A stretch of DNA of 35,578 bases from a virus. The notes beneath the pieces were generated by a model. That model saw nothing but the letters and a program-made list of their open reading frames with translations, was not told the origin of the DNA and did not search any database. A program made the translations under genes and the position numbers. Positions 612 through 24,627 of the stretch are shown in pieces (the first letter of the stretch is position 1; the number at the start of each line of letters is the position of its first letter). The stretch is taken from the IMG/VR virus record IMGVR_UViG_3300042907_000270, positions 1-35,578 of that record, one strand, 5' to 3'.

Positions 612-2561
612 GGGCTTTTCCATCTGTAGTTTAACAATGTCAAGTTTCTGCATCATGTCTTTTTCTTTTAAATCCAACTCTTTCTCTTTGAACATAAGTT
701 CAGATAACTTGGCACGACGTTCAAATTCCTTGTCATCAGCATTACCAGCAGAAAGATTAGTGGATATTGCAGCAGCAAGTTTAGCTTGAACCTCTTGTGG
801 TTTAAGTTGAGTTTCAACGGCAATTTGTTGAGCTTCCGCTTGTTGTTTACCTGCTTTAGAATTCAAGTCATTAGTTTGAGCAGTAATTAAACCAGCTTGC
901 AATTGCATTTCCATTTGTTGAATTTGTTGCGCTTCAGGGTTTGGTTGCATTGCTTGCATTACTTGAGCAATTAGGTTATTTTTATTAGGTAATGAACTAT
1001 TTGATATTACACCTTGCATCAAGATTGGAAGGATAGGACTATCAGGACCAAGAGTTTTCATCAAGTTAATCATTTGTAGTTGCTCAACTTCACGAGCAAG
1101 CATACCCAATGAGCTAGAAGCCACAAAGCTGTAATCTTTTACAGGGAAATGGTCAGCATCAAATTGCATGAAGCGGTAAGCGGCTTTTTCTACAAAAGGG
1201 ATAAGGAAGCTGTCTTGGAAATTAACAAGAGTGCGTTTATTCTTTTTGATAATAGATGAAAGGGTGATAGACATCTCACCAGCACCAGCAGGGGAAGCTT
1301 GCATTGCTTGTGAATCAAGAGTGCCTGTCGCTTGTAGCAACATACCTTCAAATTTATTAGCAATCTCAATGTTAGAAGCATCCGTTGTGCCAAACTTGAA
1401 TGGCATTAAGATTTCAGCAGGATTGCCATTTGTCAAGATGGTTTTTCCTGGCCTTACTTCAAATTTACTGCCACGAGGGAGGCGTGTAGCGTCCATAGCC
1501 ATCATTGGGACAGCGGTTAGGGCAAGAGAATCTAGGTGACTACGCAACTGGGCATCAATCGCCTTTTGCATATTATAACCCTTCTCTGCAATGCCACGAC
1601 CCCAAAAGCGGTTAGGAATACTGTCATCTTGGTATGCAATAACTGGGCGGTCTTGCATCATGTATGGGTTTTTCTCTGCTTTTAGTAATTTATTATTACC
1701 AATAACAACGATTGCCTCTACTAAATCACCATACTCCTCCATCAACTCGGTTTCATCTTCCTCACCAAGTAGGTCAACAATCTCCTCCTCGCCTTCAGAT
1801 TCTAACAAAGCGGCTGGCACTAAACCATAGTAGCGAATAATGTGAATTTTGTCATCATTATACTCTTGGTCAATCCAAGAAGCTTCTAGGTCTTTATTTG
1901 GTGTAGCATCATCGTCAATATCTGTGTCTTTATACACGCCCTCTTTGACTTTTTGAGCAATAGTGTGGGCAGATACAAATTCTTCAATAGCAACACCCAT
2001 TGCTTCCTCAATAGTTGAGGCATTTGGGTCAATAAGGAAGTTTTGTGGGTTGATTGGACGCAACGCAACATTAATTTTCTCTACTTCTTCCACACCAATC
2101 TGAATTGCATCAGCATTTTCTAGTGGGCGAGTAGCAGGTTTAAACTCTTTGGACTTTTTAAGGGTAATTTCACCAATACCAGTACCATAGATAGAGGCAA
2201 GAAGAATAACATCACCAACAGATTTACGGATTTTATTCTTTTTAAAACATTCCTTCATGTATTGCTGTAAATATTCGATATCCAATGGGTCTTGGTCACC
2301 CATGTTATCTTCAATCTCAAACAAATGGTCACCTTGACCAAAGACAGCTTCCTCAATCTCAGCTGTGTGATTCTCAATGGCTTGTTGCAACGCAGGAGAA
2401 GTAATACGGCTACGCTCTGAGGCACGAGTTAAATCCTCGGCTGCCCATACACCACGCCACAAGCGTTCGTATTCTTTCCAATCAGACAAATAGTTGTCAT
2501 CACGGTGCTCACGCCACTCGTCTGTATAACCTACAATCCATTCTACTAATTTATTTTGCAT
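597..2561 (-). CDS. Portal protein (head-tail connector)
   Basis: A 654-residue protein that forms the portal ring at the capsid vertex, through which DNA is packaged and ejected. Recognised from the overall pattern of podovirus portals: an acidic and aromatic N-terminus, an early SRITSPALQQAIENH segment, a central IRYYG...PVIAYQDDSIPNRFWGRGIAE stretch as in the portal core, and a C-terminal glutamine-rich, probably coiled-coil tail (about 540-640) like the barrel region of long portals. Length lies between T7 gp8 and P22 gp1. It follows terL with one small gene between, the usual packaging order. Its last 15 bp overlap a leftward promoter. One GTTTAAAC palindrome lies inside at 2138-2145. 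Confidence 0.85.
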   Translation of the reverse strand: MQNKLVEWIVGYTDEWREHRDDNYLSDWKEYERLWRGVWAAEDLTRASERSRITSPALQQAIENHTAEIEEAVFGQGDHLFEIEDNMGDQDPLDIEYLQQYMKECFKKNKIRKSVGDVILLASIYGTGIGEITLKKSKEFKPATRPLENADAIQIGVEEVEKINVALRPINPQNFLIDPNASTIEEAMGVAIEEFVSAHTIAQKVKEGVYKDTDIDDDATPNKDLEASWIDQEYNDDKIHIIRYYGLVPAALLESEGEEEIVDLLGEEDETELMEEYGDLVEAIVVIGNNKLLKAEKNPYMMQDRPVIAYQDDSIPNRFWGRGIAEKGYNMQKAIDAQLRSHLDSLALTAVPMMAMDATRLPRGSKFEVRPGKTILTNGNPAEILMPFKFGTTDASNIEIANKFEGMLLQATGTLDSQAMQASPAGAGEMSITLSSIIKKNKRTLVNFQDSFLIPFVEKAAYRFMQFDADHFPVKDYSFVASSSLGMLAREVEQLQMINLMKTLGPDSPILPILMQGVISNSSLPNKNNLIAQVMQAMQPNPEAQQIQQMEMQLQAGLITAQTNDLNSKAGKQQAEAQQIAVETQLKPQEVQAKLAAAISTNLSAGNADDKEFERRAKLSELMFKEKELDLKEKDMMQKLDIVKLQMEKPLTMD

Positions 2562-2569
2562 AGCGTATC

Positions 2570-2893
2570 CTATTTTTTACTTTTTAAAGGGTTAAATTTT
2601 TCTAGGGCAGTGCCTTTTTTGTATCCACCTGAAGCATAACCAATAGCTTCATCTTTAGATTTCATTGGTAAATAATTACCTGTTCGTAAGTTATATTCCA
2701 TTGCTTTATATGGGTCATTAAATTCGTATAACTCGCCTGTAGGCATTTTTACAATAGTTGGAAAAACATACCAATTACCTTTCTCATCTACTTCAGCAGA
2801 CATTTTATGAGTAGAGATTGAACCATCTTTATTTGTTATATAAGGATAATCATTTGGGTTATTGATTCTATCTAAAAATTCAGGTTTATCCAT
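2570..2893 (-). CDS. Conserved phage hypothetical protein between terL and portal
   Basis: A 107-residue, lysine-rich soluble protein with no membrane segment. The fragment NWYVFPTIVKMPTGEL followed by DPYKAMEYNLRTGNYL recalls a short module found near terminase and portal genes of many uncultured podoviruses and sometimes embedded in large phage polyproteins; this is from memory. No catalytic motif is visible. It lies 1 nt after terL stops being read and 8 nt before portal, so it is co-transcribed with the packaging genes. Function unknown. The gene at 4151-4765 has a similar C-terminal flavour (a 'sVDEqGNvhVkDtYDFPKG' type stretch) and could be a related packaging accessory. Confidence 0.7.
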   Translation of the reverse strand: MDKPEFLDRINNPNDYPYITNKDGSISTHKMSAEVDEKGNWYVFPTIVKMPTGELYEFNDPYKAMEYNLRTGNYLPMKSKDEAIGYASGGYKKGTALEKFNPLKSKK

Positions 2894-2894
2894 A

Positions 2895-4151
2895 CTAATA
2901 CCCTGCTATTGCGTCCATTGGTTGATATTCTTCTTCTTCAAAACTATTTGAACTTTCTACTATTTGTATTTGGTCAATGTATGCCAAGGCATCAATAAGG
3001 TCATCATGCAACTGTGAGTTAGGAAAGTTGACAAGCTGGTCAATGAATTCATTATTCCATGTTCCCTCATTTAGCGTGACCTTCCCGTGCTCGAATCGCC
3101 CTTGGAGTGCCCACATGATACGGTCTGTTTTCTTTTGATTGCCATGAGTGACATCGTCAATGCGGAAGTAGTGATTATGCCTACGCATAAGGTCTGTAAG
3201 GTAAGGGTGAGCAGCATTTTTTAAACTTCCTTTTTCAATTCCAACAGCAACAGGTTCATATTGAACAACAGCCCTCATTATCTGAGCGCAAGTTTCCTGA
3301 ATATCCCACCTACCATGCAAAATATCTGCAACCCACCAACCACCTTCGTGCACCTTAACAACAGCTATAGCCGTTTCATCCAGCTTTTTATTCTTATTCC
3401 CTGATTCTCTATCCACATTGATAAAACCAGCCAAGTCCACAGTAATGAAAAAACGACCTTCAATAGGTTCTTCTTCATCTATTTTTATCCATTCTTCTTT
3501 AAACAAGTCACGACTTGCTGCTTCAAACGATGCCATGAACTCTTGGCGGAACGCAAAAGATGACATACTTTGTTTAGCATTGTCAAACTCTTTTGCTGGA
3601 ATAAGGGGATTATCATAGGAAGTAAAATGAAACGCTTTCCACTCATCATCCCTCTCACTTTCCGCATATTTAAATAATTCATAGAAATGGTTTCTACCTT
3701 TTGGTGTCCCGATGAACACCGCACCACCCTGAACGTCTGACAAGGCTGGGCGTAAAATCTGTTCCCAAACATTTGGCTTTAAGTCGGCATACTCATCAAT
3801 TACAAGGAACGCTAAACCCACACCCCGTAGAGTGTCAGGTCTATCTGCACCCTTGAGGTAAATCTTACGACCATTAACAAGTGTAAGGACAGAGGTATTC
3901 TCATGTGCCGAGGCAATGACATCGTGCCCAATCTCTTTTAACAATCCCCACAAGATGTCTTTTGCTTGTTGGTAAGTTGGCGCAACATAGAAGACATCCT
4001 TCTCTGTCGACTTCAGGGCTTCAATAATAAGGAGCCAAGCGGCTAACCGACTTTTACCAAACCGCCTACCAGCAGCAAGAATCTTGAAACGGTGGTTGTC
4101 ATTAAATACTTCTAATTGCTTCTCGTGAAGCTTGACATTTAAATCTGCCAT
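2895..4151 (-). CDS. terL: Terminase large subunit (packaging ATPase/nuclease)
   Basis: A 418-residue motor that pumps DNA into the prohead and cuts it. The ATPase domain has Walker A AGRRFGKS (27-34), Walker B LVIDE (116-120) and the coupling motif FIGTPKG (about 147-152). The C-terminal RNase H-like nuclease has its acidic residues at D239 (ITVDLAG), E306 (GIEKG) and the HDDLIDALA segment near 382-390. All key residues are present and length is normal for a compact podovirus TerL. The ATG overlaps the stop of the preceding gene as TAATG, implying translational coupling. It works with the terS-like product encoded two genes upstream and with portal. Confidence 0.95.
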   Translation of the reverse strand: MADLNVKLHEKQLEVFNDNHRFKILAAGRRFGKSRLAAWLLIIEALKSTEKDVFYVAPTYQQAKDILWGLLKEIGHDVIASAHENTSVLTLVNGRKIYLKGADRPDTLRGVGLAFLVIDEYADLKPNVWEQILRPALSDVQGGAVFIGTPKGRNHFYELFKYAESERDDEWKAFHFTSYDNPLIPAKEFDNAKQSMSSFAFRQEFMASFEAASRDLFKEEWIKIDEEEPIEGRFFITVDLAGFINVDRESGNKNKKLDETAIAVVKVHEGGWWVADILHGRWDIQETCAQIMRAVVQYEPVAVGIEKGSLKNAAHPYLTDLMRRHNHYFRIDDVTHGNQKKTDRIMWALQGRFEHGKVTLNEGTWNNEFIDQLVNFPNSQLHDDLIDALAYIDQIQIVESSNSFEEEEYQPMDAIAGY

Positions 4152-5454: not shown

Positions 5455-5520
5455 AGTTCTAAGTTATATAATAATAATATAATATATTAATATTATTATA
5501 TATATATATTTAATATATAC
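5455..5520. other. A+T block, candidate unwinding element
   Basis: About 65 bp with almost no G or C, made of TA/AAT steps. It contains the 20-mer ATAATAATATAATATATTAA at 5471-5490, repeated exactly at 11065-11084, and TATATATATTTAATATAT near its right end, which occurs inverted at the second site. Position between divergent promoters and DnaA boxes suits DNA melting; this is inferred. Confidence 0.5.
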
Positions 5521-6012: not shown

Positions 6013-6094
6013 TTATCCACAGCTAAATAGTTATCCACAAAGGGATTTTATTTGTCCACAAATTATCCACAATTTAATGCACAGGATATCCACA
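6013..6094 (+). promoter_or_regulatory. Cluster of five DnaA-box-like sites
   Basis: Exact consensus TTATCCACA occurs at 6013-6021, 6031-6039 and 6063-6071. One-mismatch copies are TTGTCCACA (6052-6060) and ATATCCACA (6086-6094). All five are in one orientation within 82 bp. TTATCCACA is the strong E. coli DnaA box, and three exact copies in so short a stretch is far above chance. I read this as host DnaA binding at a phage replication origin. The cluster lies upstream of the first rightward genes and about 0.5 kb from the A+T block. Confidence 0.75.
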
Positions 6095-6921: not shown

Positions 6922-7491
6922 ATGAATAGAGAAACATACTTAAACACCATAACAACCAAATACCTAGTGCCACATTTCAAGGCGCAAGGGTATGACATAC
7001 CTACTAACATTCGCATGGCTTGCTCACTAACAAGCGGTAGGGGTGCGAAAAACAAGGCAATAGGCTTATGTTGGAATGATAGCGCAAGTGCTGACAATAC
7101 CTTTGAGATAATGATTAGCCCTACAATCGCTGACAGCTCACGGGTGATTGATATTCTTATCCATGAGGTTTGTCATGCTGTTGTCGGTTTAAAAGCGGGG
7201 CATGGCAGTGCGTTTAAACGCTGTGCTCAATCTGTTGGTTTAACTGGTAAAATGACAGCCACCACTGCAAGCGATGAATTAAAAGCCACCATTGCCCAAT
7301 GGGTTGCCGATTTGGGTGCCTACCCTCATGCCGTATTACAGGGCGAGAATAGCGGCAAGCCTAAACAAGGCACAAGAATGCTCAAAGCCACTTGCGCTGA
7401 CTGTGGTTATACTGTTAGACTTTCAGCCAAATGGGCGGCTTTGGGTTCACCTATTTGCCCATGCTGTAATGAGGGCATGGATTTAGAGTAG
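6922..7491 (+). CDS. SprT-like zinc metalloprotease with C-terminal zinc ribbon
   Basis: A 189-residue protein. HEVCHAV (81-87) gives the HExxH zinc site; H94 in KAGHGSAFKRCAQSVGL is the likely third ligand, the SprT/Spartan arrangement. A C-terminal four-cysteine ribbon follows: CADC near residue 157, CPCC near 179. Cellular SprT-family proteins such as Spartan cleave DNA-protein crosslinks; phage copies are mostly uncharacterised. Here it could clear proteins from replicating DNA or act on a host target. It is encoded early, with AAGGGG before the ATG and two hairpins upstream. The GTTTAAAC palindrome at 7212-7219 lies in the third-ligand region (A-F-K-R codons). Confidence 0.85.
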   Translation: MNRETYLNTITTKYLVPHFKAQGYDIPTNIRMACSLTSGRGAKNKAIGLCWNDSASADNTFEIMISPTIADSSRVIDILIHEVCHAVVGLKAGHGSAFKRCAQSVGLTGKMTATTASDELKATIAQWVADLGAYPHAVLQGENSGKPKQGTRMLKATCADCGYTVRLSAKWAALGSPICPCCNEGMDLE

Positions 7492-7503: not shown

Positions 7504-7546
7504 ATAAGGCGTTTAAACAGCGTCTTATGCCGTGCAATTTCGCACG
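7504..7546 (+). promoter_or_regulatory. Two tandem stem-loops before the gene at 7569
   Basis: Hairpin 1: ATAAGGCG (7504-7511) with CGTCTTAT (7521-7528), eight pairs including one G-U, its loop carrying most of a GTTTAAAC palindrome. Hairpin 2: CGTGC (7531-7535), loop AATTTC, GCACG (7542-7546). The layout repeats that at 6850-6895. An open frame runs through this region from 7494, but the structure and the good ribosome site after it argue that it is untranslated leader. Confidence 0.5.
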
Positions 7547-8951: not shown

Positions 8952-9115
8952 CAATAGACCAAGCGAGAGCAGAGTTTTACCAATTACTTAATGATGATAT
9001 AGATTTTTCAGATATGTATGAAAATAATGAATTAGGTTTTTTAGCATGGACAGACGATTATCAAATTTTAACTAATGATTTATGTTTTACAGTAGTTTTG
9101 GAGGATATAAAATGA
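8948..9115 (+). CDS. Small acidic hypothetical protein (55 aa)
   Basis: Begins MTIDQARAEFYQLL at an ATGA overlap with the membrane protein gene and ends VVLEDIK at another ATGA overlap. Very acidic (many D and E), soluble. Small acidic early proteins of phages sometimes mimic DNA or sequester host factors; nothing in this sequence proves that. Confidence 0.6.
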   Translation: MTIDQARAEFYQLLNDDIDFSDMYENNELGFLAWTDDYQILTNDLCFTVVLEDIK

Positions 9116-9312
9116 AACACCCATATAAAAATGCAAGCGATGTATCGCATTATAAGTTTATCTCTTTGCATGGCATGGATAGAAACTGTTTAAACGATGT
9201 GGACTGGGACTATAAACGAGAACGCAACAAATTCCATGAAATAGCGGACACTTTAGCCTTTATAGGGGCGACTTGCTTACTGGCTGTGGTTATCCTATTA
9301 CTTTCTTATTAA
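9112..9312 (+). CDS. Hypothetical protein with C-terminal membrane anchor (66 aa)
   Basis: Starts MKHPYKNASDVSHYKF at an ATGA overlap, with TTGGAGG as a good ribosome site before it; an upstream in-frame extension is unlikely. Residues about 45-66 (TLAFIGATCLLAVVILLLSY) form one transmembrane helix at the very C-terminus, so the charged N-terminal part would face the cytoplasm. GTTTAAAC at 9188-9195 is within the gene. Function unknown. Confidence 0.7.
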   Translation: MKHPYKNASDVSHYKFISLHGMDRNCLNDVDWDYKRERNKFHEIADTLAFIGATCLLAVVILLLSY

Positions 9313-9334: not shown

Positions 9335-9538
9335 ATGTATTACATCATCAATAAAAGCGGTAAGCGACTATCACAATTCGTGCCGAATGATATAAAACCA
9401 AAACTCTTGTTTAGAAATAACGATTATTATTCTTATGCCACAAGCAACGAAGCAATACATCATTTAGAATATATAAACACGCATGGAGTGGGCAAAAACC
9501 TATCAATAGTTAAAGGGGCGGATTATGTCTTATTGTAA
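9335..9538 (+). CDS. Small hypothetical protein (67 aa)
   Basis: Begins MYYIINKSGKRLSQF and ends KGADYVLL; a GAGAGGTG segment acts as ribosome site. The last 14 bases overlap the next gene in another frame. Basic and aromatic, soluble, no recognised motif. The 'yYiinksgkrls' start suggests a small beta-sheet protein. Confidence 0.65.
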   Translation: MYYIINKSGKRLSQFVPNDIKPKLLFRNNDYYSYATSNEAIHHLEYINTHGVGKNLSIVKGADYVLL

Positions 9539-9722
9539 TGATACAAACGAGCAATTATGCCGTGAGGTGCAGCGTTTAAACATCACGGACGACTTAACAA
9601 ACGAAATTTTATTAAGGCTAATGGATTTAGACGAAATTTTATTTAAATTTGACTTAACCCCAAATACCTTATATGCTGAACTGCTTAAAATTCAACAAGT
9701 GAGGGAAATTATATGGGATTAA
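9525..9722 (+). CDS. Small helical hypothetical protein (65 aa)
   Basis: Starts MSYCNDTNEQLCREVQRLN inside the end of the previous gene and after AGGGG. Mostly helical and leucine-rich (LTNEILLRLMDLDEILFKF), which may allow dimerisation. GTTTAAAC (9574-9581) lies within it as part of the R-L-N codons. Its end overlaps the following gene by 10 bases. Unknown family. Confidence 0.65.
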   Translation: MSYCNDTNEQLCREVQRLNITDDLTNEILLRLMDLDEILFKFDLTPNTLYAELLKIQQVREIIWD

Positions 9723-9910
9723 CTAAAGTTTACACAATTTGGGAGTGCGACGATAAAACCGACGATTGGACTAGATGGAGTATGCCTAAAACCTATTGGG
9801 CTAGTAAAAAAGAAGCGGAAAACTTTTTGCTTGAGTATTGGAAAGATTTAGACTTAGGGCAAGAAGATTATAAGATGGACAACTTTCAAATAGAGGAAGA
9901 TTTTGTATGA
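9713..9910 (+). CDS. Small acidic hypothetical protein (65 aa)
   Basis: Coupled to the genes on both sides by short overlaps (10 and 4 bases). Rich in tryptophan and acid: VYTIWECDDKTDDWTRWS, then KEAENFLLEYWKDLDL. No membrane segment. Composition like this is common in small phage proteins that bind host proteins, but no specific role can be assigned. Confidence 0.65.
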   Translation: MGLTKVYTIWECDDKTDDWTRWSMPKTYWASKKEAENFLLEYWKDLDLGQEDYKMDNFQIEEDFV

Positions 9911-10101
9911 AAATCAAATGGACTTCAGTATTTACTTTTGATGTATATTTTTATGACGGTTGGGAAAATTGCGTAAGATTTCGCATATTAGATGGGGCTT
10001 TAATCCCTTGTAAAAAATATGGAAAAATACCTGACAATTTCATGCAATTAACCGAAAATCGCTGTAAATCACGGAAATTGCAACCTAAACACAGCGTTTA
10101 A
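9907..10101 (+). CDS. Small hypothetical protein (64 aa)
   Basis: ATG at 9907 overlaps the preceding stop (ATGA), with GAGGAAG before it. Starts MKIKWTSVFTFDVYFYDGW; the C-terminal third is basic (NRCKSRKLQPKH). The stop codon falls inside a GTTTAAAC palindrome (10096-10103). It is the last of the tightly packed small early genes; a promoter follows. Confidence 0.6.
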   Translation: MKIKWTSVFTFDVYFYDGWENCVRFRILDGALIPCKKYGKIPDNFMQLTENRCKSRKLQPKHSV

Positions 10102-10139
10102 ACACTCTTTGTGTGGGTATAGGGAACCTGAGTTTTATG

Positions 10140-11158: not shown

Positions 11159-12379
11159 ATGATAGAACATAGCATATTGAAGCTATTTTTAGAGGACAAT
11201 GAGTTATACGAAAAATATCATACTTATTTAAAACTAGATTTTATTAAAACCGATTACCCACTACTGTTCAAGCTATTTAAATCGTTGCCAGCTAAAAGCG
11301 TAGGGGAACTCGAAGCAAAGTATCTAACCTTGTATCCTGTTTTAAAAGATGGTGATAGGAAAGTTATAAGTGAACTGTTGGCTACTGTTGATAAGACCGA
11401 GGTTTATACCCAATCAATCGTTGATTATATGCAACAGCACTACTCACAATCAGTTGCTAGTGAATTATCCCTTGTGGCGATTGATGTTGCCGAGGGGCGC
11501 AAGAAGGTAGAGGATTTAGCACCTATCATTGATAAACTGGAATTATCGGTTGTTGATGAGATAGACGAAGTGGAATGGGTAACAACTGACATTGAGGAAC
11601 TTATGGACGAGGAGGAATTATCACTTGGACTAAAGTGGCGTTTAAACGCACTCAACCAATCACTCGGACCACTACGCAAGGGGAATTTCGGACACATCTT
11701 TGCCCGTGTGGAAACAGGTAAAACCGCCATGTGGATAAGTGAAGTTACCTTTATGGCAGAACAGGTAGAACAACCAATTCTCATATTTTTTAATGAGGAG
11801 GGTGGCAAGGATATTGTATGGAGAATGTATTCTGCTGTTACAGGTTTCACCTACATGGAATTGAGTAACAACATCAAGAAAGCCAAAGCGATATGGGACG
11901 AGAAAATTGGCGATAAGATTAAATTTATTGACCAACCATCCCTTGTTGAACGCAAGACAATGGAAAAGCTGATAGAGCAAGTGCAGCCATCGCTAATTAT
12001 CATTGACAACATGGATAAGGTTAAGGGATTTGTTGGTGATAGGAAAGATTTGGTGTTGCATGAGATTTACAAGTGGGGGCGAGATATCGCTAAGACCTAT
12101 TGCCCTGTAATAAGTGTTGGACAAGCGGACAGCACAGGGCATAATGACCGCTACATCAATGAAAGCCAAATGGCAGACAGTAAGACCAGTAAGCCATCGG
12201 AACTAGATTTTATTATTGGTATTGGTAGGACAGACAAAGAGGGATATGAGAATGTTAGGTATATAAATATCCCCAAGAATAAGTTACGAGGCAGTATAGA
12301 TAGCGTTGAATCTATGCGACATCTAAAAGGCAAAGAAGTTTTAATTGTTCCTCACTTGAGTATCTATCAAGATATGTAA
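11159..12379 (+). CDS. Replicative DNA helicase (DnaB/T7 gp4 C-terminal type)
   Basis: A 406-residue RecA-fold hexameric helicase that unwinds the replication fork. Walker A is ARVETGKT (about 182-189), with the first glycine replaced by alanine, as often in phage versions. FFNEEGGKDIVWR (about 210-222) is the H1a-like segment, Walker B is LIIIDNMD (279-286), and SVGQADST (about 320) follows as the sensor motif. The N-terminal 140 residues are helical and would contact primase or neighbouring subunits. AGAGG precedes the ATG. GTTTAAAC (11640-11647) falls in the W-R-L-N-A codons. Confidence 0.9.
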   Translation: MIEHSILKLFLEDNELYEKYHTYLKLDFIKTDYPLLFKLFKSLPAKSVGELEAKYLTLYPVLKDGDRKVISELLATVDKTEVYTQSIVDYMQQHYSQSVASELSLVAIDVAEGRKKVEDLAPIIDKLELSVVDEIDEVEWVTTDIEELMDEEELSLGLKWRLNALNQSLGPLRKGNFGHIFARVETGKTAMWISEVTFMAEQVEQPILIFFNEEGGKDIVWRMYSAVTGFTYMELSNNIKKAKAIWDEKIGDKIKFIDQPSLVERKTMEKLIEQVQPSLIIIDNMDKVKGFVGDRKDLVLHEIYKWGRDIAKTYCPVISVGQADSTGHNDRYINESQMADSKTSKPSELDFIIGIGRTDKEGYENVRYINIPKNKLRGSIDSVESMRHLKGKEVLIVPHLSIYQDM

Positions 12380-12437: not shown

Positions 12438-12941
12438 ATGATTACACAAGAGTATTTAAACAGTATCTTAAATTATGATGAATTTACAGGGGAATTAACT
12501 TGGAAAGTTAGAAAAGGTACTAGAGCTTTAATTGGAAGTGTTGCAGGCACATTAGATAATACTGGATATATTCATATTACTATTGATAAAAAGGTTTACC
12601 AGTATCATAGAATTATATGGATGTATGTTTATGGTAAGTTTCCATCTGAATTTTTAGACCATATAAATAATGATAAAACTGATAATCGATTGCAAAATTT
12701 AAGAGAAGCTACTAGGGCTCAAAATGCTTTAAATCGTGGAAAACAATCTAACAATGCTACTGGGTATATCGGGGTTTATTGGCATACTCAGAGTAAGAAA
12801 TACAGAGCAAAATGCACCTATAATGGTGTTCGACATCATCTAGGTAGTTTTAATACGGCTGAAGAAGCTTCTGAGGTTTACAATACATTTACTAAATCCT
12901 TGTATAAGGAATTTCATTATGAAAAATATAATCGCTTATGA
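12438..12941 (+). CDS. HNH homing endonuclease with AP2-like DNA-binding domain
   Basis: A 167-residue protein. The central HNH nuclease reads YHRIIWMYVYGKFP, LDHINNDKTDNRLQNL, REATRAQNALNR, the HNH_3 pattern with DHIN as metal/catalytic site. The C-terminal part (TGYIGVYWH... KYRAKCTYNGVRHHLGSFNTAEEA) is an AP2-like three-strand DNA-binding domain. This architecture is typical of mobile phage endonucleases that cut a recipient gene nearby. It has its own promoter and intrudes between helicase and polymerase; its last 23 bases overlap the polymerase start in another frame. Its codon choice is more AT-rich than the helicase, consistent with recent arrival. Confidence 0.9.
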   Translation: MITQEYLNSILNYDEFTGELTWKVRKGTRALIGSVAGTLDNTGYIHITIDKKVYQYHRIIWMYVYGKFPSEFLDHINNDKTDNRLQNLREATRAQNALNRGKQSNNATGYIGVYWHTQSKKYRAKCTYNGVRHHLGSFNTAEEASEVYNTFTKSLYKEFHYEKYNRL

Positions 12942-14085
12942 TGTAGAAACAACTATTTATGAGAAGGGCTCAACATATAGCCAAACTAATAAACTTGTGT
13001 ATGTAGGATTTTATAAAGATGAGCAAGAGTATTCTCTTTTACCCATAGAATATAATGATGAACCTTATGGGAATTCCCTAAAAGAAGCTCAAAGTATTTT
13101 AGATAATTGCGACCTACTTGTTGGCTTTAATCTTAAATTTGATATTGGATGGGGTAAGCGATATGGGTTAGACTTTAGTAATATTCGCTGCTGGGACTGC
13201 CAACTTGTTCACTTTATGCTACAAGGTCAAGCAGATAGTTATCCAAGTTTAAATGGAGTATGTGAGTATTATGGCATTGGTTCTAAATTAGATGAGGTTA
13301 AGGCTTATTGGGATGCTGGAATAGACACACCTGATATTCCAAGAGATATTTTAGAACAATATTTAAAGCAAGATATATCCTTAACTTTAGAAGTTTATAA
13401 AAAACAGGTTGAAGAAGTAAATGCAAAAAGCACAGCGTTTAAACGACTTGTTTCCCTTCACAACCAAGACCTGATTGTATTACAGGAGATTGAGTATAAT
13501 GGACTGCTGTTTGACGAGGGGGCTTGTCTGAAACAGGCTGAGGTCTTAGGTAAAGAGATTGAGGAGTTACGGGCATCGCTGTATGCAAGCCATTCAATCC
13601 CTGAGTTTAACACCGAGAGTGGTGACCACCTATCTGCTTTGTTGTATGGTGGCACTATCACAATTCCCCGTAAAGAGGTTGTAGGGATTTATAAGACAGG
13701 GGATAGGAAGGGACAGGAGAAGCTGGGTTGGAAGGATTACTCATTTTATATGCCACGGCTTGTTAAACCCTTGGTGGGAAGTGAACTAAAGAAAGAGGGT
13801 TATTGGGCTACTGGGGCTGATGTGCTAAAATCCCTTAAGCCAAAAGGTGAGGCAAAGAAAATAGTAGACACCATCTTGGAACTCGCTAAACTAGAAAAGA
13901 TAGTATCAACTTATTATTTAGGGTTGCCAGCGTTACGAGAGAAAATGAATTGGGGTGTGAATATGTTGCACGGGAACCTCAACCAATGCGTTGCTCGGAC
14001 AGGGCGACTATCATCAACTAAACCCAACCTACAAAACATTAGTGGGGATATGAAGGGTGTGTTTGGGAGTAGATATGCTGTATGA
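12919..14085 (+). CDS. DNA polymerase family A, N-terminal piece (3'-5' exonuclease and thumb)
   Basis: 388 residues of a T7-like polymerase. Exo I is AYDVETT (D8, E10), Exo II is GFNLKFD (N71, D75), Exo III is YLKQD (Y148, D152), so proofreading residues are intact. The rest is the thumb and start of the palm, ending with ARTGRLSSTKPNLQNIS (about 355-372) and GVFGSRYAV, then TGA. In intact relatives this is followed within a few residues by motif A (xxQADASxLE). Here motif A starts in a separate gene at 15405. The two proteins may assemble into an active enzyme, or the RNA may be spliced. The ATG lies inside the HNH gene. Confidence 0.9.
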   Translation: MKNIIAYDVETTIYEKGSTYSQTNKLVYVGFYKDEQEYSLLPIEYNDEPYGNSLKEAQSILDNCDLLVGFNLKFDIGWGKRYGLDFSNIRCWDCQLVHFMLQGQADSYPSLNGVCEYYGIGSKLDEVKAYWDAGIDTPDIPRDILEQYLKQDISLTLEVYKKQVEEVNAKSTAFKRLVSLHNQDLIVLQEIEYNGLLFDEGACLKQAEVLGKEIEELRASLYASHSIPEFNTESGDHLSALLYGGTITIPRKEVVGIYKTGDRKGQEKLGWKDYSFYMPRLVKPLVGSELKKEGYWATGADVLKSLKPKGEAKKIVDTILELAKLEKIVSTYYLGLPALREKMNWGVNMLHGNLNQCVARTGRLSSTKPNLQNISGDMKGVFGSRYAV

Positions 14086-14624: not shown

Positions 14625-15107
14625 ATGAAAATATACCTATCTAATTATAGATACCATTGGATAAGCCCATTGAAAATAGCAGAGAAGTTGTGCTTTTGGC
14701 AAGAGATTAAATATGACGAACCGTGGGTAAAGCGTTTAAACAACATCTTATACCCTGTCATGTCGATTTTGCAGAAGGTTTTAGACACAATCCACCCTCG
14801 TGTCGAATATGTGCACATTGATGAATATGACACATGGAATATGAATACCACCCTTGCTAAAATCATCCTACCAATGCTTAAACAGCTAAAGGAAGACAAG
14901 TATGGATATCCAAGCACTCTTACTGAAAAGAAGTGGAATACCATAGTAGATGAGATGATTTGGTCGTTTGAGCAAGTGTTAGATGACGAAAGTGATGAGA
15001 AGTTTTGGACAGATGGGATTGATTGGGATGGATTAAGGGCGCATAATAAGCGAATAGATAAAGGGCTTGCTTTATTTGGTAAATATTATAGGAATTTGTG
15101 GGATTGA
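14625..15107 (+). CDS. Conserved phage hypothetical protein, KIYLSNYR type (160 aa)
   Basis: Begins MKIYLSNYRYHWISP. Later it has VHIDEYDTWNMNTTLAKIILPMLKQLK and near the C-terminus a DGLRAHNKRIDKGLALFGKYYRNLWD segment. I recognise these blocks from a protein widely conserved in T4-like, T7-like and marine phages ('D.~DtWsMD.TLA.Ii.PML.~LK', 'R.d.GL.LFgkyY.~LW'), whose function is not established as far as I know. Length is a little short because the usual acidic loop (DDEDVP region) is missing. AAAGGAAA precedes the ATG. GTTTAAAC at 14734-14741 is in the K-R-L-N codons. It sits between the two polymerase pieces. Confidence 0.85.
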   Translation: MKIYLSNYRYHWISPLKIAEKLCFWQEIKYDEPWVKRLNNILYPVMSILQKVLDTIHPRVEYVHIDEYDTWNMNTTLAKIILPMLKQLKEDKYGYPSTLTEKKWNTIVDEMIWSFEQVLDDESDEKFWTDGIDWDGLRAHNKRIDKGLALFGKYYRNLWD

Positions 15108-15109: not shown

Positions 15110-15187
15110 ATGACACAAGCAGAACTTGAGGAATTGACTTATCTTTTAATCTTATCTAAGATGAAGGAAAATGCAAAGAAATTATGA
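15110..15187 (+). CDS. Very small ORF (25 aa)
   Basis: ATG 15110 overlaps the preceding stop region (GATTATGA) and codes for MTQAELEELTYLLILSKMKENAKKL, predicted helical. It ends in an ATGA overlap with the next frame. Support is only the neat coupling on both sides, so it could be a leader peptide rather than a functional protein. Confidence 0.4.
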   Translation: MTQAELEELTYLLILSKMKENAKKL

Positions 15188-15405
15188 TAGAATGGCATAA
15201 GTTTTACCTACCCCCGATTAACTTATATAACAGACCGAGGAATAACATGGACAGAGAAAACGAATCAGGTATGAATGAAGAAGAAATGTATGTGGAATTC
15301 ACAATGATTGAGATTAACGAGTTTATTAGCAGGTATGGTGCGGAATTCTTCTTGTCAAAACTGAAGTATCCAAACTTAATGGCAATCATACGAGAGTTGC
15401 CGTAA
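15184..15405 (+). CDS. Small acidic hypothetical protein upstream of the polymerase C-terminal gene (73 aa)
   Basis: The frame starts at an ATGA overlap (15184); an internal ATG at 15247 has a better ribosome site (GAGGA at 15236-15240) and would give 52 residues beginning MDRENESGMNEEEM. The C-terminal part (FTMIEINEFISRYGAEFFLSKLKYPNLM) is helical. It ends TAATG, the stop overlapping the polymerase C-terminal start by one base, so ribosomes finishing here can start the polymerase piece. Unknown family; the start is undecided. Confidence 0.55.
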   Translation: MIEWHKFYLPPINLYNRPRNNMDRENESGMNEEEMYVEFTMIEINEFISRYGAEFFLSKLKYPNLMAIIRELP

Positions 15406-16112
15406 TGCTGTTACAGGCAGACGCATCTGCTCTAGAAATCCGTGTTGCCGCCTACCTTAGCCAAGACCAAGTCTTAATAAACGAGATTGTGAATGGTGTG
15501 GACTTGCATACTGATAACCAAGAGAAGTTTGGGCTACCCTCTCGTTTGATAGCCAAGATTTTAAACTTTAGGATATTGTATGGTGGCAATGAATTCTCGT
15601 TTGCTAATGACCCTGACTTCACTTCTATAAGCAAGAGTAAGGCATATTGGAAGGATGTGGTGGATGCCTACTACGACAAGTATCGAGGCATAGGGGCATG
15701 GCACACAAAGATTATTCGTGAGGTAGTGGAAACCAATAAACTAGTAGCCCCAACTGGTAGGGAATATTACTTTCAGAAGTTTGGTGGGCAGTATAAGGAC
15801 ACGCAGATTAAGAATTATGCTGTTCAGGGGACGGGTGCAGACCTCATGGCTTTGGCTAGGGTTAGTGCTCATAACCGATTGAAAAAGCTAGGATATGGCG
15901 ACAAATGTTTGTTAGTAAATACGGTGCACGATTCGATAATCCTTGACTTTGATGACAAAGTGTGCGATACTAAGGAATTAGTAAATATGTTTCACAGCGT
16001 GTTTCACGACCTGCCAGCTAATTTTGAAAAGATGTTTGGTGTGAAATTTAATGTCCCAATGGCGGCTGAGTGTCAAAAGGGTTTGAATTGGGCAGATATG
16101 GAGGTTGTATAA
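15405..16112 (+). CDS. DNA polymerase family A, C-terminal piece (palm and fingers, catalytic)
   Basis: 235 residues carrying all catalytic motifs. Motif A is DASALEIRV (D6, E11). Motif B is R47-K51-F55-Y59-G60, matching RxxxKxxxFxxxYG of the O helix. Motif C is VHDS (174-177, D176). QGTGADLMALA (about 141-151) is also conserved. It ends normally. Without the N-terminal piece it has no thumb or exonuclease, so it should need it as partner. The start overlaps the previous stop (TAATG), with only a weak GAGAG ribosome site, implying coupled translation as a separate protein. Upstream codons in this frame (R-V-A-V) do not clearly extend the homology. Confidence 0.9.
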   Translation: MLLQADASALEIRVAAYLSQDQVLINEIVNGVDLHTDNQEKFGLPSRLIAKILNFRILYGGNEFSFANDPDFTSISKSKAYWKDVVDAYYDKYRGIGAWHTKIIREVVETNKLVAPTGREYYFQKFGGQYKDTQIKNYAVQGTGADLMALARVSAHNRLKKLGYGDKCLLVNTVHDSIILDFDDKVCDTKELVNMFHSVFHDLPANFEKMFGVKFNVPMAAECQKGLNWADMEVV

Positions 16113-16564
16113 TGGAAATTGAGATTGTAGATATAGCAAAGGTAGACAAAGAGGATAAGTTTGGGAAACCAACACGCACTCTAGCCGTAACCTTCACCTC
16201 AGAAGGCGTAACTCGCACACAGAACATAGTCCCTTTTGCTAACCCCAAGGTGTTTGGTGTGTTAGACGATGCGAATATTGGTGACAAATTTGAAGTAGCC
16301 ATCACAAAGAATGGTAAGTATGACAACTGGTCTGCTATTGGTCCAGTAGGGTCGTTTAAACAAGCTGCACCAACGACCAAGGTAATAGGTAGTAACTACG
16401 AGACAGCAGAGGAACGGGCGATTAAACAACGATATATTGTTAGACAATCATCCATTGCTAATGCTATTGCCCTAGCAACAGGTTCACCAGCAACAGTAAA
16501 AGATATTATTACTATTGCCAAGCAATTCGAGGAGTATGTTTTTGAGCCAGCAGAAACCTTATAA
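16112..16564 (+). CDS. Conserved phage protein, probable OB-like replication accessory (150 aa)
   Basis: Starts MEIEIVDIAKVDKEDKFGKPTRTLAV at a TAATG overlap with the polymerase C-terminal gene; an upstream extension of the frame is unlikely. The first 90 residues are beta-rich (LAVTFTSEGVTRTQNIVPFANPKVFGVL, IGDKFEVAITKNGKYDNWSAIG), the shape of an OB-fold. The C-terminal part (RYIVRQSSIANAIALATG... KDIITIAKQFEEYVF) is helical. From memory, proteins of this form lie beside polymerase and SSB genes in several phage groups. A single-strand DNA or polymerase-binding role is inferred. GTTTAAAC at 16354-16361. Confidence 0.7.
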   Translation: MEIEIVDIAKVDKEDKFGKPTRTLAVTFTSEGVTRTQNIVPFANPKVFGVLDDANIGDKFEVAITKNGKYDNWSAIGPVGSFKQAAPTTKVIGSNYETAEERAIKQRYIVRQSSIANAIALATGSPATVKDIITIAKQFEEYVFEPAETL

Positions 16565-18402: not shown

Positions 18403-18580
18403 TATTACAGGCGATAGTATAATTAGTGGTAAAGGTAGTAAGAAGAAGTTTGATGAGGGTATTAAACTCATTAAGCCAAGTTGCCTTCCTGATTGTAAAT
18501 ATCTTATTGACACACTAACTAAGTGCAGGGTTTGTGATTTTCGTGACGAATCCCTTGTGCCAAAGAAAGGAAAGAAATGA
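18386..18580 (+). CDS. Small conserved phage protein, MATKNDITGD type (64 aa)
   Basis: Starts MATKNDITGDSIISGKGSKKKFDEGI; this opening is familiar from small proteins in tailed phages, often next to HNH genes. Its second half has four cysteines (CLPDC, CRVCDF), which may bind zinc. Basic overall. It overlaps its neighbours on both sides by 4-17 bases. Function unknown. Confidence 0.7.
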   Translation: MATKNDITGDSIISGKGSKKKFDEGIKLIKPSCLPDCKYLIDTLTKCRVCDFRDESLVPKKGKK

Positions 18581-18915
18581 GAATCCGTTTAAACGACCTC
18601 CCCGAACATCATCCCTACAGGAATATTAAACTTAAAGATTTAGAAGTGTTTTATCGTAAAGAAGATAATAAGGTATGGCAAGAGGTATTCTCCACTTATA
18701 ATATTGCAAAAAACACATACAATGAGTTAGGTGCGGTATGGAAAGATGGGCACGAGTGGGCTGTGGATAGTGATTCATCTTTGTGTCAGATATGCGGTAA
18801 GGATTTAAGTAAGGTTACGGAATGTGCTTGGACATCTTGCCCTAAAGACAATTGGGACGAGGATAGAATTGATAATATAGGTCAGAACGGCAACGAGGGC
18901 TTACACTATGTCTAA
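18577..18915 (+). CDS. Hypothetical protein with possible zinc site (112 aa)
   Basis: Coupled by ATGA to the previous gene and overlapping the phosphoesterase gene by 8 bases. Starts MRIRLNDLPEHHPYRNI; GTTTAAAC (18587-18594) encodes part of I-R-L-N-D. C-terminal half has CQICGKDLS and CAWTSC, which could hold one zinc. Otherwise unrecognised. Acidic C-terminal third. Confidence 0.65.
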   Translation: MRIRLNDLPEHHPYRNIKLKDLEVFYRKEDNKVWQEVFSTYNIAKNTYNELGAVWKDGHEWAVDSDSSLCQICGKDLSKVTECAWTSCPKDNWDEDRIDNIGQNGNEGLHYV

Positions 18916-20294: not shown

Positions 20295-20295
20295 T

Positions 20296-20783: not shown

Positions 20784-20826
20784 TGATTTTAGCAAGCTTG
20801 TCTTGCACTCTAGGGCTTGTTTAAAA

Positions 20827-20882
20827 AGAGGGGTCTATGTAACGGTATCAGTTTTATATGATATTCGCTTCTAGACCCCTTT
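20827..20882. terminator. Bidirectional terminator between convergent arms
   Basis: AGGGGTCTA (20829-20837) pairs perfectly with TAGACCCCT (20872-20880), and AAAG before and TTT after extend the stem and supply T runs in both directions. The 34-nt loop holds a smaller TATCA/TGATA hairpin. It lies between the last rightward stop (20783) and the first leftward stop (20903), where both strands need termination. Confidence 0.75.
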
Positions 20883-20902
20883 ATGTGCGTTTTAGAGCTA
20901 TT

Positions 20903-22357
20903 TTACTGATTAAATGGTTCTAAAGCCGTATTTTCATCCTGTAAAAACCTACTTGATAGCTCAGCAGGTATCACACCACGAATAATTGATGATTTTAAGG
21001 CAGTAGCCGTAATATCTTTTGTTTTACCTAATTTAGTTTTATTATAAAATCTAGAAACTTGTGATTTTAGTGTTGCTAACTCACCAACATCTATTGTTTT
21101 TAATTTAGCAATCTTTGGATATAATCTATTAAATTCAGATAAAGCTTCTTCTTCAGGTAAATTTTTTAAATAGCTTGCTAAAGCAATACGGAAATCTCGT
21201 TTACCTACTGCAGATTTTCCAATATTCTCAATTGCCCTATCAGTTAGCTCTCCTGTAAATCCTTGGTTTATAATTACAGGAATACTATCCCTAGCAGTTG
21301 CTACATAACCATTAGATTCCATTTCTTTTAAAGTTGAATACAAAGGAGTTCCTGAAACTCGTTGTGTAAATTTATCTACAGATTCTTTTAACAATGCAGA
21401 AGCATCATCACTAATCTTAATACCATTCCATTCAGGTTCAGCTTGTTGTATAGTATTTAAGAATTTACTATTCCAACCTTTTGCAATTAAAGGGTCTTTA
21501 GAATTTTGACCATTAACTAAATTAACAATTGTACCAAAATCTTCTTTTTTAGAGAAACCTTGAGATGGTCCTTGTTTTAATCTTATTAGCATATCTTTAG
21601 CTTCAGGACTATCTTTAAAACTATTATTATCAAAAGTAGTATAAAAATATTTTCTTAATGCCCCTACAGGTTTTTCAGCTTGAGCTATTTGGACACCTAT
21701 ACTAGATACTATATCAGCATCAAGTTTTTCTTGTTGAGCAGTAAATACATCTGTAGCAACACCTGCTTTTCTATTTTCAGCACCAAATAGTTTATTACGA
21801 GCCGCTATATCTGATTCACTACGACCTGCTGCTACTGTTTTTGCTGCCCTAGCCTTACTATAACCACCACCCCCTGTTACAGTTGAACCTAAAGCAATAA
21901 GACCTGACAAAGGGGTTCTAGTGATTAAGTCGCCTGTTAGAGTTGGAACTGCACCTGTAGCAAGTTCTGTCCCAAAAGCCCACATTTGACCTTCAGGTGA
22001 GTTGTTGGTAGCTTCCCTTACAAATTCACCAGCAGTGGTTGAAGCCACACCTGATGTTCCACCTTTGATTGCTTTCCAAGCAGCATTAGCAGCAGTTAAA
22101 GCACCTTTACCTAAGACAGCCTCACCGCCACCAAACACTGTTCCAGCTAAAGTTCCTAATGCAATGGCTTCAGGGCTAATAGTATAAGGCTCTTTAAATT
22201 GTTGAGCAGATTCTATGGCATTTCGTGGACCTGACATCTCTGCAATAGCATCCGCTAATTGATTAGCTTCTTTTAGCAAAACAGGGTCATTAGGTGACGC
22301 TTGTAAAGCTTTATCTACATTACTTAAAGCATCTTCTATTTCTTGAATAGTTGCCAT
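20903..22357 (-). CDS. Probable internal virion / DNA ejection protein (484 aa)
   Basis: Last gene of the leftward late arm. N-terminus is helical (MATIQEIEDALSNVDKALQ), then a glycine- and alanine-rich region (about 60-175, ALGTLAGTVFGGGEAVLGKGA and STVTGGGGYSKARAAK) that could insert in membranes, then a long helical C-terminal half. Position at the end of a run of three similar proteins, after tail genes, fits the ejection proteins of podoviruses (P22 gp7/gp20/gp16, T7 gp14-16), which leave the virion and form a channel across the cell envelope. I see no lysozyme motif. The precise role is inferred from context and composition. Confidence 0.6.
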   Translation of the reverse strand: MATIQEIEDALSNVDKALQASPNDPVLLKEANQLADAIAEMSGPRNAIESAQQFKEPYTISPEAIALGTLAGTVFGGGEAVLGKGALTAANAAWKAIKGGTSGVASTTAGEFVREATNNSPEGQMWAFGTELATGAVPTLTGDLITRTPLSGLIALGSTVTGGGGYSKARAAKTVAAGRSESDIAARNKLFGAENRKAGVATDVFTAQQEKLDADIVSSIGVQIAQAEKPVGALRKYFYTTFDNNSFKDSPEAKDMLIRLKQGPSQGFSKKEDFGTIVNLVNGQNSKDPLIAKGWNSKFLNTIQQAEPEWNGIKISDDASALLKESVDKFTQRVSGTPLYSTLKEMESNGYVATARDSIPVIINQGFTGELTDRAIENIGKSAVGKRDFRIALASYLKNLPEEEALSEFNRLYPKIAKLKTIDVGELATLKSQVSRFYNKTKLGKTKDITATALKSSIIRGVIPAELSSRFLQDENTALEPFNQ

Positions 22358-22362
22358 TTTAC

Positions 22363-23607
22363 TTACCTTTTAGTTTTATATTTATTTACAAGTGAATCAA
22401 CAGAAGAACCACCTGTTGTAGGCATTGCTTTTGGAGAATATATATTAACTAAATCAGGGTCTTTAATACTTTGTAATTTACGAGTGTAGTCATTATAAGT
22501 GGACTTTGCATTACGCTCAACTACATCTGTCAATACTTGAATTTCAGGAATAGTTAAATCATCAATACTACCTGTTGTTGCTTTTTCTACAATTTGTTGC
22601 TCGTAGTTAGATATAGCACCAGTGCCTTTAAGACGAGCACGAGCTGTTAAAGCTAAGTCTGCTAGACCTTGAATTGCAGAACGCGTATTTGCAAGTTGTT
22701 TATCATTAGTACCACCAGCATATACTTGAGCAACTTGAGCCAAGGTTTTTCTTAAGGAGGCTCCTGGCCCTACAATTACTTTATTAGAACTAATGGCTTT
22801 CCGAATATCGCCTACAGCAACAATAGCATCAGCAGAAGCATTTGCAGCAGGAAGTTCTGCAGATAGTATCGCACCTGCTTCAGCAGCAATAGATTTTTGT
22901 GTATTTACTTGAACAGTTGAAGCACCTGACTTAGCTAATTTAGTTTTAAAATTATCTAAATAATCTAACTCTTGTATTTCAGCATTAGTTATAGTTCCTA
23001 AAGCTTTTTTATCCGCTAACTCAACCATACGATTTTCAATAGAAGTTTTATTTTTCTCTACTTCTTTATCAATAGCTAATTGAATATTATTTGCTAATGG
23101 TGTATTATTAGAATCTTTAGCTAATTGTAAATTGTTAGATAATTGTACGATTTTAGGCAAAGCCTCTTGATAAGCTTTAGAAGCCTCACCAATAAATTTA
23201 CTTGTTTGAGCAGCTTCTTTCCCTTGAGCAATAGCTTGATTTTGAGCCACTTGTAAATTCTGATAAGCATTATTAGCTAGTTCAGGTAAATTAGCTGCCA
23301 TAGCTGCTTCATATACAGCAGCACTTAATTTGTAAGGGTCACGCATATCTTCAGGTGACAAAGAGGATTGCACTTCTTGTAATAATTGATTTTCTTTTGT
23401 TTGTCTAGCAAGCATTGGGTCTTCTGAACCTAACAATCCACCAATAGTTCTACCAATATTCCTACCACGAATAGCCGCATCATAAATCATACCTTGTTCA
23501 GGGTCTAATTTAGCTTCTGCTAATGCTTGAGCACGAAACTGTAAATCTTGCTGTTGTTTAAACAGCTCAGGGGAAACCCCAAATAATCCTTGTACTATTT
23601 CAGCCAT
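22363..23607 (-). CDS. Probable internal virion protein, coiled-coil (414 aa)
   Basis: A glutamine- and alanine-rich helical protein: FGVSPELFKQQQDLQFRAQALAEA near the N-terminus, a stretch RTIGGLLGSEDPMLARQTKE, long coiled-coil segments, and GPGASLRKTLAQVAQVYAGG...IQGLADLALTARARLKGTGAISNYEQQIVEKA in the last third, a block I recall from phage ejection or lytic-transglycosylase-neighbour proteins. GTTTAAAC at 23556-23563. Start ATG has AAGGAA upstream. It lies between two other putative ejection proteins, with 5- and 15-bp gaps. No enzyme motif. Confidence 0.6.
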   Translation of the reverse strand: MAEIVQGLFGVSPELFKQQQDLQFRAQALAEAKLDPEQGMIYDAAIRGRNIGRTIGGLLGSEDPMLARQTKENQLLQEVQSSLSPEDMRDPYKLSAAVYEAAMAANLPELANNAYQNLQVAQNQAIAQGKEAAQTSKFIGEASKAYQEALPKIVQLSNNLQLAKDSNNTPLANNIQLAIDKEVEKNKTSIENRMVELADKKALGTITNAEIQELDYLDNFKTKLAKSGASTVQVNTQKSIAAEAGAILSAELPAANASADAIVAVGDIRKAISSNKVIVGPGASLRKTLAQVAQVYAGGTNDKQLANTRSAIQGLADLALTARARLKGTGAISNYEQQIVEKATTGSIDDLTIPEIQVLTDVVERNAKSTYNDYTRKLQSIKDPDLVNIYSPKAMPTTGGSSVDSLVNKYKTKR

Positions 23608-23622
23608 AATTATTCCTTCTTA

Positions 23623-24627
23623 TTAGTAAAATACACCAGCCATGCGTTGACCACCATAGGTAGCTGGGTCTACATAGGAAGATTGCCCTAGTTGATATGC
23701 TTGTACACCCTCAGTAGAAGGAAGACCACCAAATAAACCACTCCAATTTATTTTACCTAAACCTTCTCCAGCACTATTCCAAGCAGCTTGATTAGCTCGT
23801 TGAGTATTTAAATTTTGTAAATAATTTACACGATTTATATCAGCATTGTAAGCAGCAGTTTGATTACCAAGTTGACCAACACTAATACCAGTATTTAAAC
23901 CTTGAGCCATAGTGTTAGCACCAAGATTTTCAAGATTGATACCATAACCCATAAGAGTATTAGCGGTGTTATATGGGTCGGTTAAGTAAGATTGACCTAA
24001 GCCATACAAAGCACCTGCACGTTGTAAGTCTTCACCTTGGATTGCACGAGCACGGTCTTCTGCACTTAATGCAAGAGCAGCATTTTGTTGTTCACGAGCT
24101 TGAGCTAAAGCAAATTGTTGAGGATTCACATAACCAGTCCCCATACCAACACCTTGACCAGTAGTTCCACGAGCAAATTGTAAATCGTTTAAACGACTTG
24201 ATTCTTGAGCACGAGATGGCTCTAACAATGCTTGTTGACGATTATAATAATCTTGGGTCATTGCCCCTGTATCCATACCTGTTGCTCGTCCAAATAATCC
24301 CTTACCGTAATCAGATACTTGTTGAGCATAGGCTGTTTGTTCAGCAGAAGGGAGGGCAGCAGCCGCACCAGCAAAATACTGGTCACGGAACGCTTGCATT
24401 TCAGGGGTAAGGGTATAAGATGCTGTTCTAGCATTTGGGTCAACTGTAGATGTAGCAATACCTGATTTAATGCTATATGGAGTAAATCCAGCAGAAGTAG
24501 GTGAACCGCCCTTACCACCACCGCCACCTGATGTCAAACCACCAAGAGCCCCAGCAGCAGCACCAGCCCAACCTCCTGTGGCAAAACCACCTAGTGCTCC
24601 AGTAACTCCTTTAACTAATTTACCCAT
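23623..24627 (-). CDS. Probable DNA ejection / internal virion protein (334 aa)
   Basis: The N-terminus is glycine- and alanine-rich (GFATGGWAGAAAGALGGLTSGGGGG), a feature of phage pilot proteins that enter membranes. The centre has ESSRLNDLQFARGTTGQGVGMG and QQFALAQAREQQNAALALSAEDRA, which I recognise from a group of virion proteins of marine and freshwater podoviruses with an 'RLr..LfarGttG' signature. Helical, Q-rich remainder ends TYGGQRMAGVFY. GTTTAAAC (24187-24194) encodes S-R-L-N-D. It starts the group of three putative ejection proteins and overlaps the upstream gene. Confidence 0.65.
   Translation of the reverse strand: MGKLVKGVTGALGGFATGGWAGAAAGALGGLTSGGGGGKGGSPTSAGFTPYSIKSGIATSTVDPNARTASYTLTPEMQAFRDQYFAGAAAALPSAEQTAYAQQVSDYGKGLFGRATGMDTGAMTQDYYNRQQALLEPSRAQESSRLNDLQFARGTTGQGVGMGTGYVNPQQFALAQAREQQNAALALSAEDRARAIQGEDLQRAGALYGLGQSYLTDPYNTANTLMGYGINLENLGANTMAQGLNTGISVGQLGNQTAAYNADINRVNYLQNLNTQRANQAAWNSAGEGLGKINWSGLFGGLPSTEGVQAYQLGQSSYVDPATYGGQRMAGVFY

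Follow-up and report, generated by a model that had tools for sequence, protein, structure and literature searches.

An 18-bp palindromic element dispersed through a freshwater phage genome tracks a gene for a SprT-like metallopeptidase

The complete IMG/VR virus record IMGVR_UViG_3300042907_000270, a freshwater phage of 35,578 bp (hereafter the window, meaning this whole stretch), contains 13 exact copies of the 8-bp palindrome GTTTAAAC. Here we show that the actual unit is an 18-bp palindrome, R-N3-Y-GTTTAAAC-R-N3-Y (R, purine; Y, pyrimidine; N, any base), that its core is conserved at the level of DNA, that its symmetric rule is shared with unrelated phages, and that its occurrence tracks a gene (sprT-like) encoding a SprT-like metallopeptidase of the family phrog_6361. 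Sequence comparison leads us to propose, with confidence that is evenly balanced, that these palindromes are dispersed operators of a SprT-linked regulatory system. In open-licence literature we found no account of the motif, nor of any phage palindrome linked to a SprT-like protein. The 18-bp site is apparently undescribed so far, and points to an unrecognised system of phage gene control.

The palindrome and its 18-bp element

Copies of GTTTAAAC start at positions 2138, 7212, 7511, 9188, 9574, 10096, 11640, 13437, 14734, 16354, 18587, 23556 and 24187. Dinucleotide-shuffled sequences contain 1.33 +/- 1.24 copies (maximum 6), confirming an earlier note on this DNA, which had counted thirteen where about one is expected. 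Moreover, the concentration of ten copies in the rightward arm that it described is borne out, as this arm makes up 41% of the window and holds 10/13 (binomial p = 0.010). In 7 of these 10, GC lies immediately 5′ of the core on the plus strand, and both CGTTTAAAC and GCGTTTAAAC are among the top-scoring k-mers of the window. Synonymous-codon shuffles, which leave the protein and codon counts of every gene unchanged, had been named beforehand as a means of refuting the claim that coding cannot account for the copies. Over 2,000 trials, with all 256 8-bp palindromes scored, they fell short of the 11 genic copies observed (mean 1.54, maximum 8), and GTTTAAAC was the most over-represented palindrome (z = 7.4; runner-up z = 2.0). 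The two kinds of shuffle together rule out chance and codon usage as the cause of the excess. The copies had also been said to occupy varied reading frames and encode varied residues; their codon phases are indeed mixed, but two solutions, x-CGT-TTA-AAC (R-L-N) and xCG-TTT-AAA-C (F-K), cover most of them.

The 18-bp rule is fitted on both sides by 11 of the 13 copies, namely all ten of the right arm and that at 24187. The copy at 23556 fits on one side only and that at 2138, which may be a chance occurrence, on neither. Cores with a single mismatch show no enrichment (59 vs 53.5 and 71 vs 73.4 expected) and served as controls for the flanks of exact sites. The resulting p values, which are guides only because half-sites at homologous positions are not independent, show Y at -1 and R at -5 enriched on both sides in lineages 1 and 2 of the related phages (p 7e-11 to 6e-7) and in contigs outside them that were selected for the SprT-like protein (p 4e-22 at -1, 1e-11 at -5). 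The -1 rule also holds in the phage Venkman, in R5C plus Pan1, and in phages of gamma/beta-proteobacteria; the -5 rule fails in R5C plus Pan1 and does not reach significance in either Venkman or the gamma/beta phages. A strict symmetric core with contacts nine bases off the dyad looks like the footprint expected of a dimeric DNA-binding protein, and it is very probable, judging from the sequence, that the 18-bp element is a protein-binding site. The suggestion of a DNA-level binding signal made in the earlier note is thus well supported by the codon shuffles, the conservation of the core, the unenriched one-mismatch cores, the shared flank rule and the both-side fits.

Retention of sites among relatives was compared with an expectation equal to local identity raised to the eighth power. 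In the relative G001 all alignable cores are unchanged, within flanks that are 79-93% identical. From the window to G001, 10/10 sites are kept (3.7 expected), and from G001 to a further relative, G009, 8/8 are kept (2.1 expected). Free loss of sites in related phages, the other refutation named in advance, did not occur in close relatives. The helicase-gene site has the codons TGG CGT TTA AAC (W-R-L-N) both in the window clade and in many of the lineage-2 members, whose helicase is only ~41% identical to that of the window clade, and sister clades (59-66% identity) encode this position with other codons. The constraint is not universal, because L008 has lost two sites and in the lineage-2 member G016 2/8 of the sites of G015 are kept against 1.9 expected, which is no excess. 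No alternative enriched palindrome was found in sister lineages. A 12-bp palindrome, AGGTTTAAACCT, is conserved in similar sequence in G001 (8210), G003 (13235), G004 (3216), G006 (13590) and G008 (1980); it occurs mostly in non-enriched kin, its flanks violate the 18-bp rule and it looks like a separate element.

Association with a SprT-like metallopeptidase

The sprT-like gene of the window lies at 6922-7491 on the plus strand. Its product matches PF10263 (33.6 bits, cut-off 25.6) and phrog_6361 (4e-47), a family with its own G-L-T-G-K-M-T-A-T-T stretch to which PHROGs gives no function. Because all 25 homologues compared keep H81, E82, H85 and H94 (the HExxH motif plus one more histidine), the protein looks like an active protease; a C-terminal zinc ribbon is also conserved. 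The AlphaFold monomer is confident (pLDDT 87), and similarity to Spartan at the sequence level is weak (E 0.11; PDB 6mdx, 6mdw). Homologues are present in 163 phage records, mostly labelled protease or 'transcription elongation protein'.

The association first appeared in 22 kin records, in which any phrog_6361 HMM (hidden Markov model) match coincided exactly with enrichment of GTTTAAAC. This coincidence is weakened because the weak lineage-2 matches are a different, short HExxH protein. The short protein (112-126 aa), encoded in the late arm of G014 (28562-28900, minus strand), G005 (15153-15530, minus strand) and other lineage-2 members, has weak similarity to phrog_6361 and is without the GLTGKMTATT stretch. 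Both the window clade and G015, the lineage-2 contig richest in the motif (15 sites in 22.9 kb), encode the SprT-like protein itself, and no copy turned up in non-enriched kin.

Homologues were sought in IMG/VR blind to the motif. With near-duplicates and relatives removed, 22 contigs carrying the protein (SprT+) were compared with 100 control contigs without it by tblastn. GTTTAAAC is enriched in 15/22 SprT+ contigs and in 1/100 controls (Fisher p 4e-13, kinship ignored), and is the top-ranked 8-bp palindrome in 15/22 and 0/100, respectively. Most contigs that this search brought up are rich in the motif, with 30 sites where 0.79 are expected (L362), 27 where 0.88 are (L351), 18 against 0.55 (L361) and 16 against 0.32 (L339), and L347, at 57% GC, holds 6 against 0.02. 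Isolates show the same excess: Venkman (34 vs 1.71 expected), R5C (17 vs 0.04), Pan1 (16 vs 0.02), Mica (7 vs 0.09) and Alexa (8 vs 0.98), with 5 sites in ECO1230-10 and 4 in Persinger. The hosts of motif-rich isolates span the alpha-, beta- and gamma-proteobacteria. Enriched phages are distributed over the depth of the SprT protein tree, and the non-enriched fall mainly in one clade (actinophages, L342 and L358) and the pair L345/L350. Among myoviruses of the Persinger type, the SprT+ members MQ-4 and Mano carry 6 and 4 sites, and members without the protein (SprT-) carry none (RcRhea, S-LBS1) or two (PPpW-3, FoX2). No other protein family is as widely shared among the SprT+ phages, which were selected by SprT. 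A functional link between the 18-bp site and the SprT-like protein is, on this comparative evidence, probable. The earlier note had left the choice between a phage and a host protein; because the motif tracks a phage gene in unrelated phages, we favour a protein linked to the phage. The host marker finds no support in 399 Burkholderiales genomes.

Position of the sites and their proposed role

Sites of the window lie mostly inside early and replication genes. The core at 7212-7219 is within the sprT-like gene (element 7207-7224, AGTGC-GTTTAAAC-GCTGT) and unchanged in G001 and L030, and that at 7511-7518 is intergenic, ~20 bp past the sprT-like stop codon, and unchanged in G001. Three follow in short open reading frames (ORFs): 9188-9195 in ORF 9115-9312 (kept in 7/8 relatives, lost in L008), 9574-9581 in ORF 9525-9722 (examined in relatives) and 10096-10103, kept in 8/9 relatives, which includes the stop codon of ORF 9907-10101 and is the overlap with a stop codon previously pointed out. 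The core at 11640-11647 is that of the DnaB-like helicase gene, and 13437-13444 lies in the N-terminal DNA polymerase A ORF on A-F-K-R codons; a lineage-2 GTTTAAAC in the same gene encodes V-F-K-R. Further sites are at 14734-14741 in ORF 14625-15107 (unchanged in G001 at 79% local identity), at 16354-16361 in ORF 16112-16564 (examined in relatives), and at 18587-18594 directly after the start codon of ORF 18577-18915, where the core is retained though neighbouring 5′ bases differ in G001 and L017. Leftward ORFs contain the remaining three, at 23556-23563 (ORF 22363-23607; unchanged in G001, lost in G010), 24187-24194 (ORF 23623-24627; unchanged in G001 and G009) and 2138-2145 (portal-like ORF 597-2561).

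Elsewhere, sites are often found at gene starts. One lies upstream of the sprT start in Mica (15 bp), Alexa (16 bp), Persinger (18 bp) and ECO1230-10 (19 bp), and G015 has one 61 bp upstream of sprT, filling the spacer between the two boxes of a consensus promoter, TTGACA-16-TATTAT. Six Venkman sites abut annotated start codons, and 8/32 lie no more than 20 bp upstream of one (1.7 expected). Several lineage-2 sites fall between the ribosome-binding site and the ATG, and in G015 (2115) and L344 a site is within a terminator-like hairpin. We rejected the idea that the sites share a sigma-70 promoter, as only the G015 site at 1470 beats the 99th percentile of random positions. The sites are symmetric and without strand bias, which, together with their frequent location, in other phages, at gene starts or upstream of sprT, disfavours the packaging or second-strand mark that the earlier note had listed.

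From these data we infer binding, repression and a role for proteolysis. The palindromes would be dispersed 18-bp operators bound by a symmetric, probably dimeric protein of a SprT-linked regulatory system, and this protein, much as at mycobacteriophage stoperators, would repress transcription, or stand in its way as a roadblock, along the early/replication operon; several other phages would have sprT itself as a target too. An operator or roadblock role has about an even chance of being correct. In one version, to which we lean slightly, the SprT-like protein binds the site, perhaps via its conserved zinc ribbon; in the other, the protease removes a separate binder. That the SprT-like protein is itself the binder is plausible from its sequence, at somewhat less than an even chance. 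More tentatively, phrog_6361 proteins might be a previously unknown class of sequence-specific regulators that bind the 18-bp site in phages of alpha-, beta- and gamma-proteobacteria, control early transcription from these dispersed positions and use proteolysis for release or sensing.

Several observations weigh against a system of SprT-linked operators. Firstly, G014 and G005 are motif-rich and keep their sites, yet are without a full-length phrog_6361 protein; they have either lost it in recent times or can do with a different one. Secondly, PPpW-3 and FoX2, both SprT-, retain two sites each, one of them among the opening codons of a ParB-like gene. Thirdly, the actinophage clade and L342, L345, L350 and L358 have a SprT-like protein without the motif. 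Because of these three, our confidence stays near one half. Moreover, no window site precedes the sprT start (the nearest is 4.8 kb upstream), none overlaps a good sigma-70-like promoter, and a Foldseek search of the predicted structure against the PDB gave no significant match, the top one being CapP (E 0.17), a lead only.

The foremost alternative is that a separate phage- or host-encoded repressor occupies the sites and is cleaved by the SprT-like protease, freeing early genes in the style of IrrE/PprI-DdrO, ImmA-ImmR or CapP-CapH. The apparently active protease suits it, sites before sprT in other phages would place sprT in the regulon, and CapP, though not significant, is the top structural match. 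However, a repressor family of the helix-turn-helix (HTH) or ribbon-helix-helix type was sought among 57 proteins (window plus enriched relatives) without success, 97 proteins from SprT+ contigs showed no common one, and SprT+ phages showed no second shared protein family. We consider this arrangement possible but unlikely.

It is less likely again that the sites bind a host-encoded protein, such as a host marker or a nucleoid or cell-cycle regulator, exploited by the phage. The motif is common to lineages 1 and 2 despite their diverged helicases, and a phage-encoded repressor was not found, both as expected of a host protein. Against this, the hosts of motif-rich isolates cover three proteobacterial classes and the motif follows a phage gene. 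The search of candidate hosts proposed in the earlier note was made in 399 genomes of Burkholderiales, the order assigned to the hosts of three motif-rich SprT+ phages, and showed no general excess; the 18-bp pattern occurs in 193, at counts usually no higher than those of the reversed control. Two of these genomes, G087 and G164, have 12 matches each (1-2 in the control), the highest of the 399, possibly through composition or as real operators. An exact-pattern scan of genome contigs lent a host marker no support either, giving 73 scattered matches and a sole cluster of hairpin repeats in one Endomicrobia bin. These repeated intergenic hairpins, ACGGCGTTTAAACGCCGT (L280, L295, L302), are apparently unrelated to the phage sites. 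TerL matches in genome contigs yielded no host.

A mark for replication, segregation or genome organisation, for example centromere-like ParB-type sites or DNA-synthesis sites, is slightly more doubtful still. The window sites cluster in the replication arm, site spacing is more even than random in R5C (P 0.034) and Pan1 (P 0.005), and a conserved site stands at the start of a ParB-like gene in the myovirus group. This gene is phrog_1033 in FoX2 and Persinger, and GTTTAAAC is at its start in L428 (1124), L429 (1124), Persinger (16174) and Mica (32519); this holds even for SprT- members. However, many Venkman sites are at gene starts, and PF02195 was not detected in G001, G014, G005, G015, Venkman, R5C or L362, in a search that excluded the window record itself. 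A ParB-like protein as general binder was rejected, PF02195 being present in some phages only. Finally, a restriction-modification or nuclease recognition site would suit the strict 8-bp core and its unenriched one-mismatch variants, but is very improbable, given that phages usually shed rather than acquire restriction sites, that the outer R/Y positions and gene-start sites suit a regulator better, and that no methyltransferase was noticed among the window proteins examined.

The link of phrog_6361 to a specific DNA site offers a direct and cheap test of the function of this family, and would explain why one palindrome recurs in phages that are unrelated and infect many proteobacteria. If the operator role is true, an unnoticed regulatory network is common to phages in which no repressor can be recognised.

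Other features of the window were also seen. Three TTATCCACA DnaA-box-like repeats (6013-6071) lie near an AT-rich array (5464-5519), where gene direction and GC skew switch. This region is likely the replication origin and may use host DnaA; it has no exact GTTTAAAC, as the earlier note had said. DNA polymerase A is split into ORFs 12919-14085 and 15405-16112, with the break just before motif A and small ORFs between; MEP401 and lineage 2 have a split polymerase too. An Rfam match to int-alpA RNA (RF02996, 47 bits) lies at 484-549 on the minus strand, flanked by an HNH-like ORF and the portal-like gene; no integrase was seen.

Relation to known systems

The plasmid palindromes of KorA and ParB/parS have GTTT...AAAC ends and are a lead only, as their spacing and sequence differ from those of the window site and a ParB domain was undetected in the motif-rich kin of the window. 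Similar in layout are the stoperators of mycobacteriophages, the sites of cluster A immunity repressors (PMC9283540, PMC6550527), which occur as many copies of a short site spread over a phage genome and are asymmetric and bound by a monomeric repressor (PMC9283540). The window site is similarly multi-copy and dispersed through the genome. Unlike stoperators, it is an 18-bp palindrome found in unrelated phages with a SprT-like peptidase as the linked gene. No HTH family was found among the proteins scanned, nor a repressor gene in the window clade. Because the asymmetry of stoperators is absent, we do not class the element as one, despite the similar layout.

In the pairs IrrE/PprI-DdrO, ImmA-ImmR-like and CapP-CapH, an HExxH zinc peptidase goes with palindromic operator sites. 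The window resembles them in linking such a peptidase to palindromic sites; it differs in having a peptidase of the SprT-like kind (PF10263), which carries a zinc ribbon at its C terminus, and in that a partner HTH repressor was not found. A repressor gene beside the peptidase gene or co-inherited with it, as in peptidase-repressor pairs such as IrrE/PprI-DdrO (PMC10904395), was not found in the SprT+ set, which has no other shared family and no common HTH. The window protein carries the SprT-like domain with its HExxH motif and belongs to that family. To our knowledge, Spartan/SprT proteases are not known as sequence-specific binders. Like these DNA-protein crosslink proteases, the window protein combines a SprT-like HExxH domain with a zinc-binding region.

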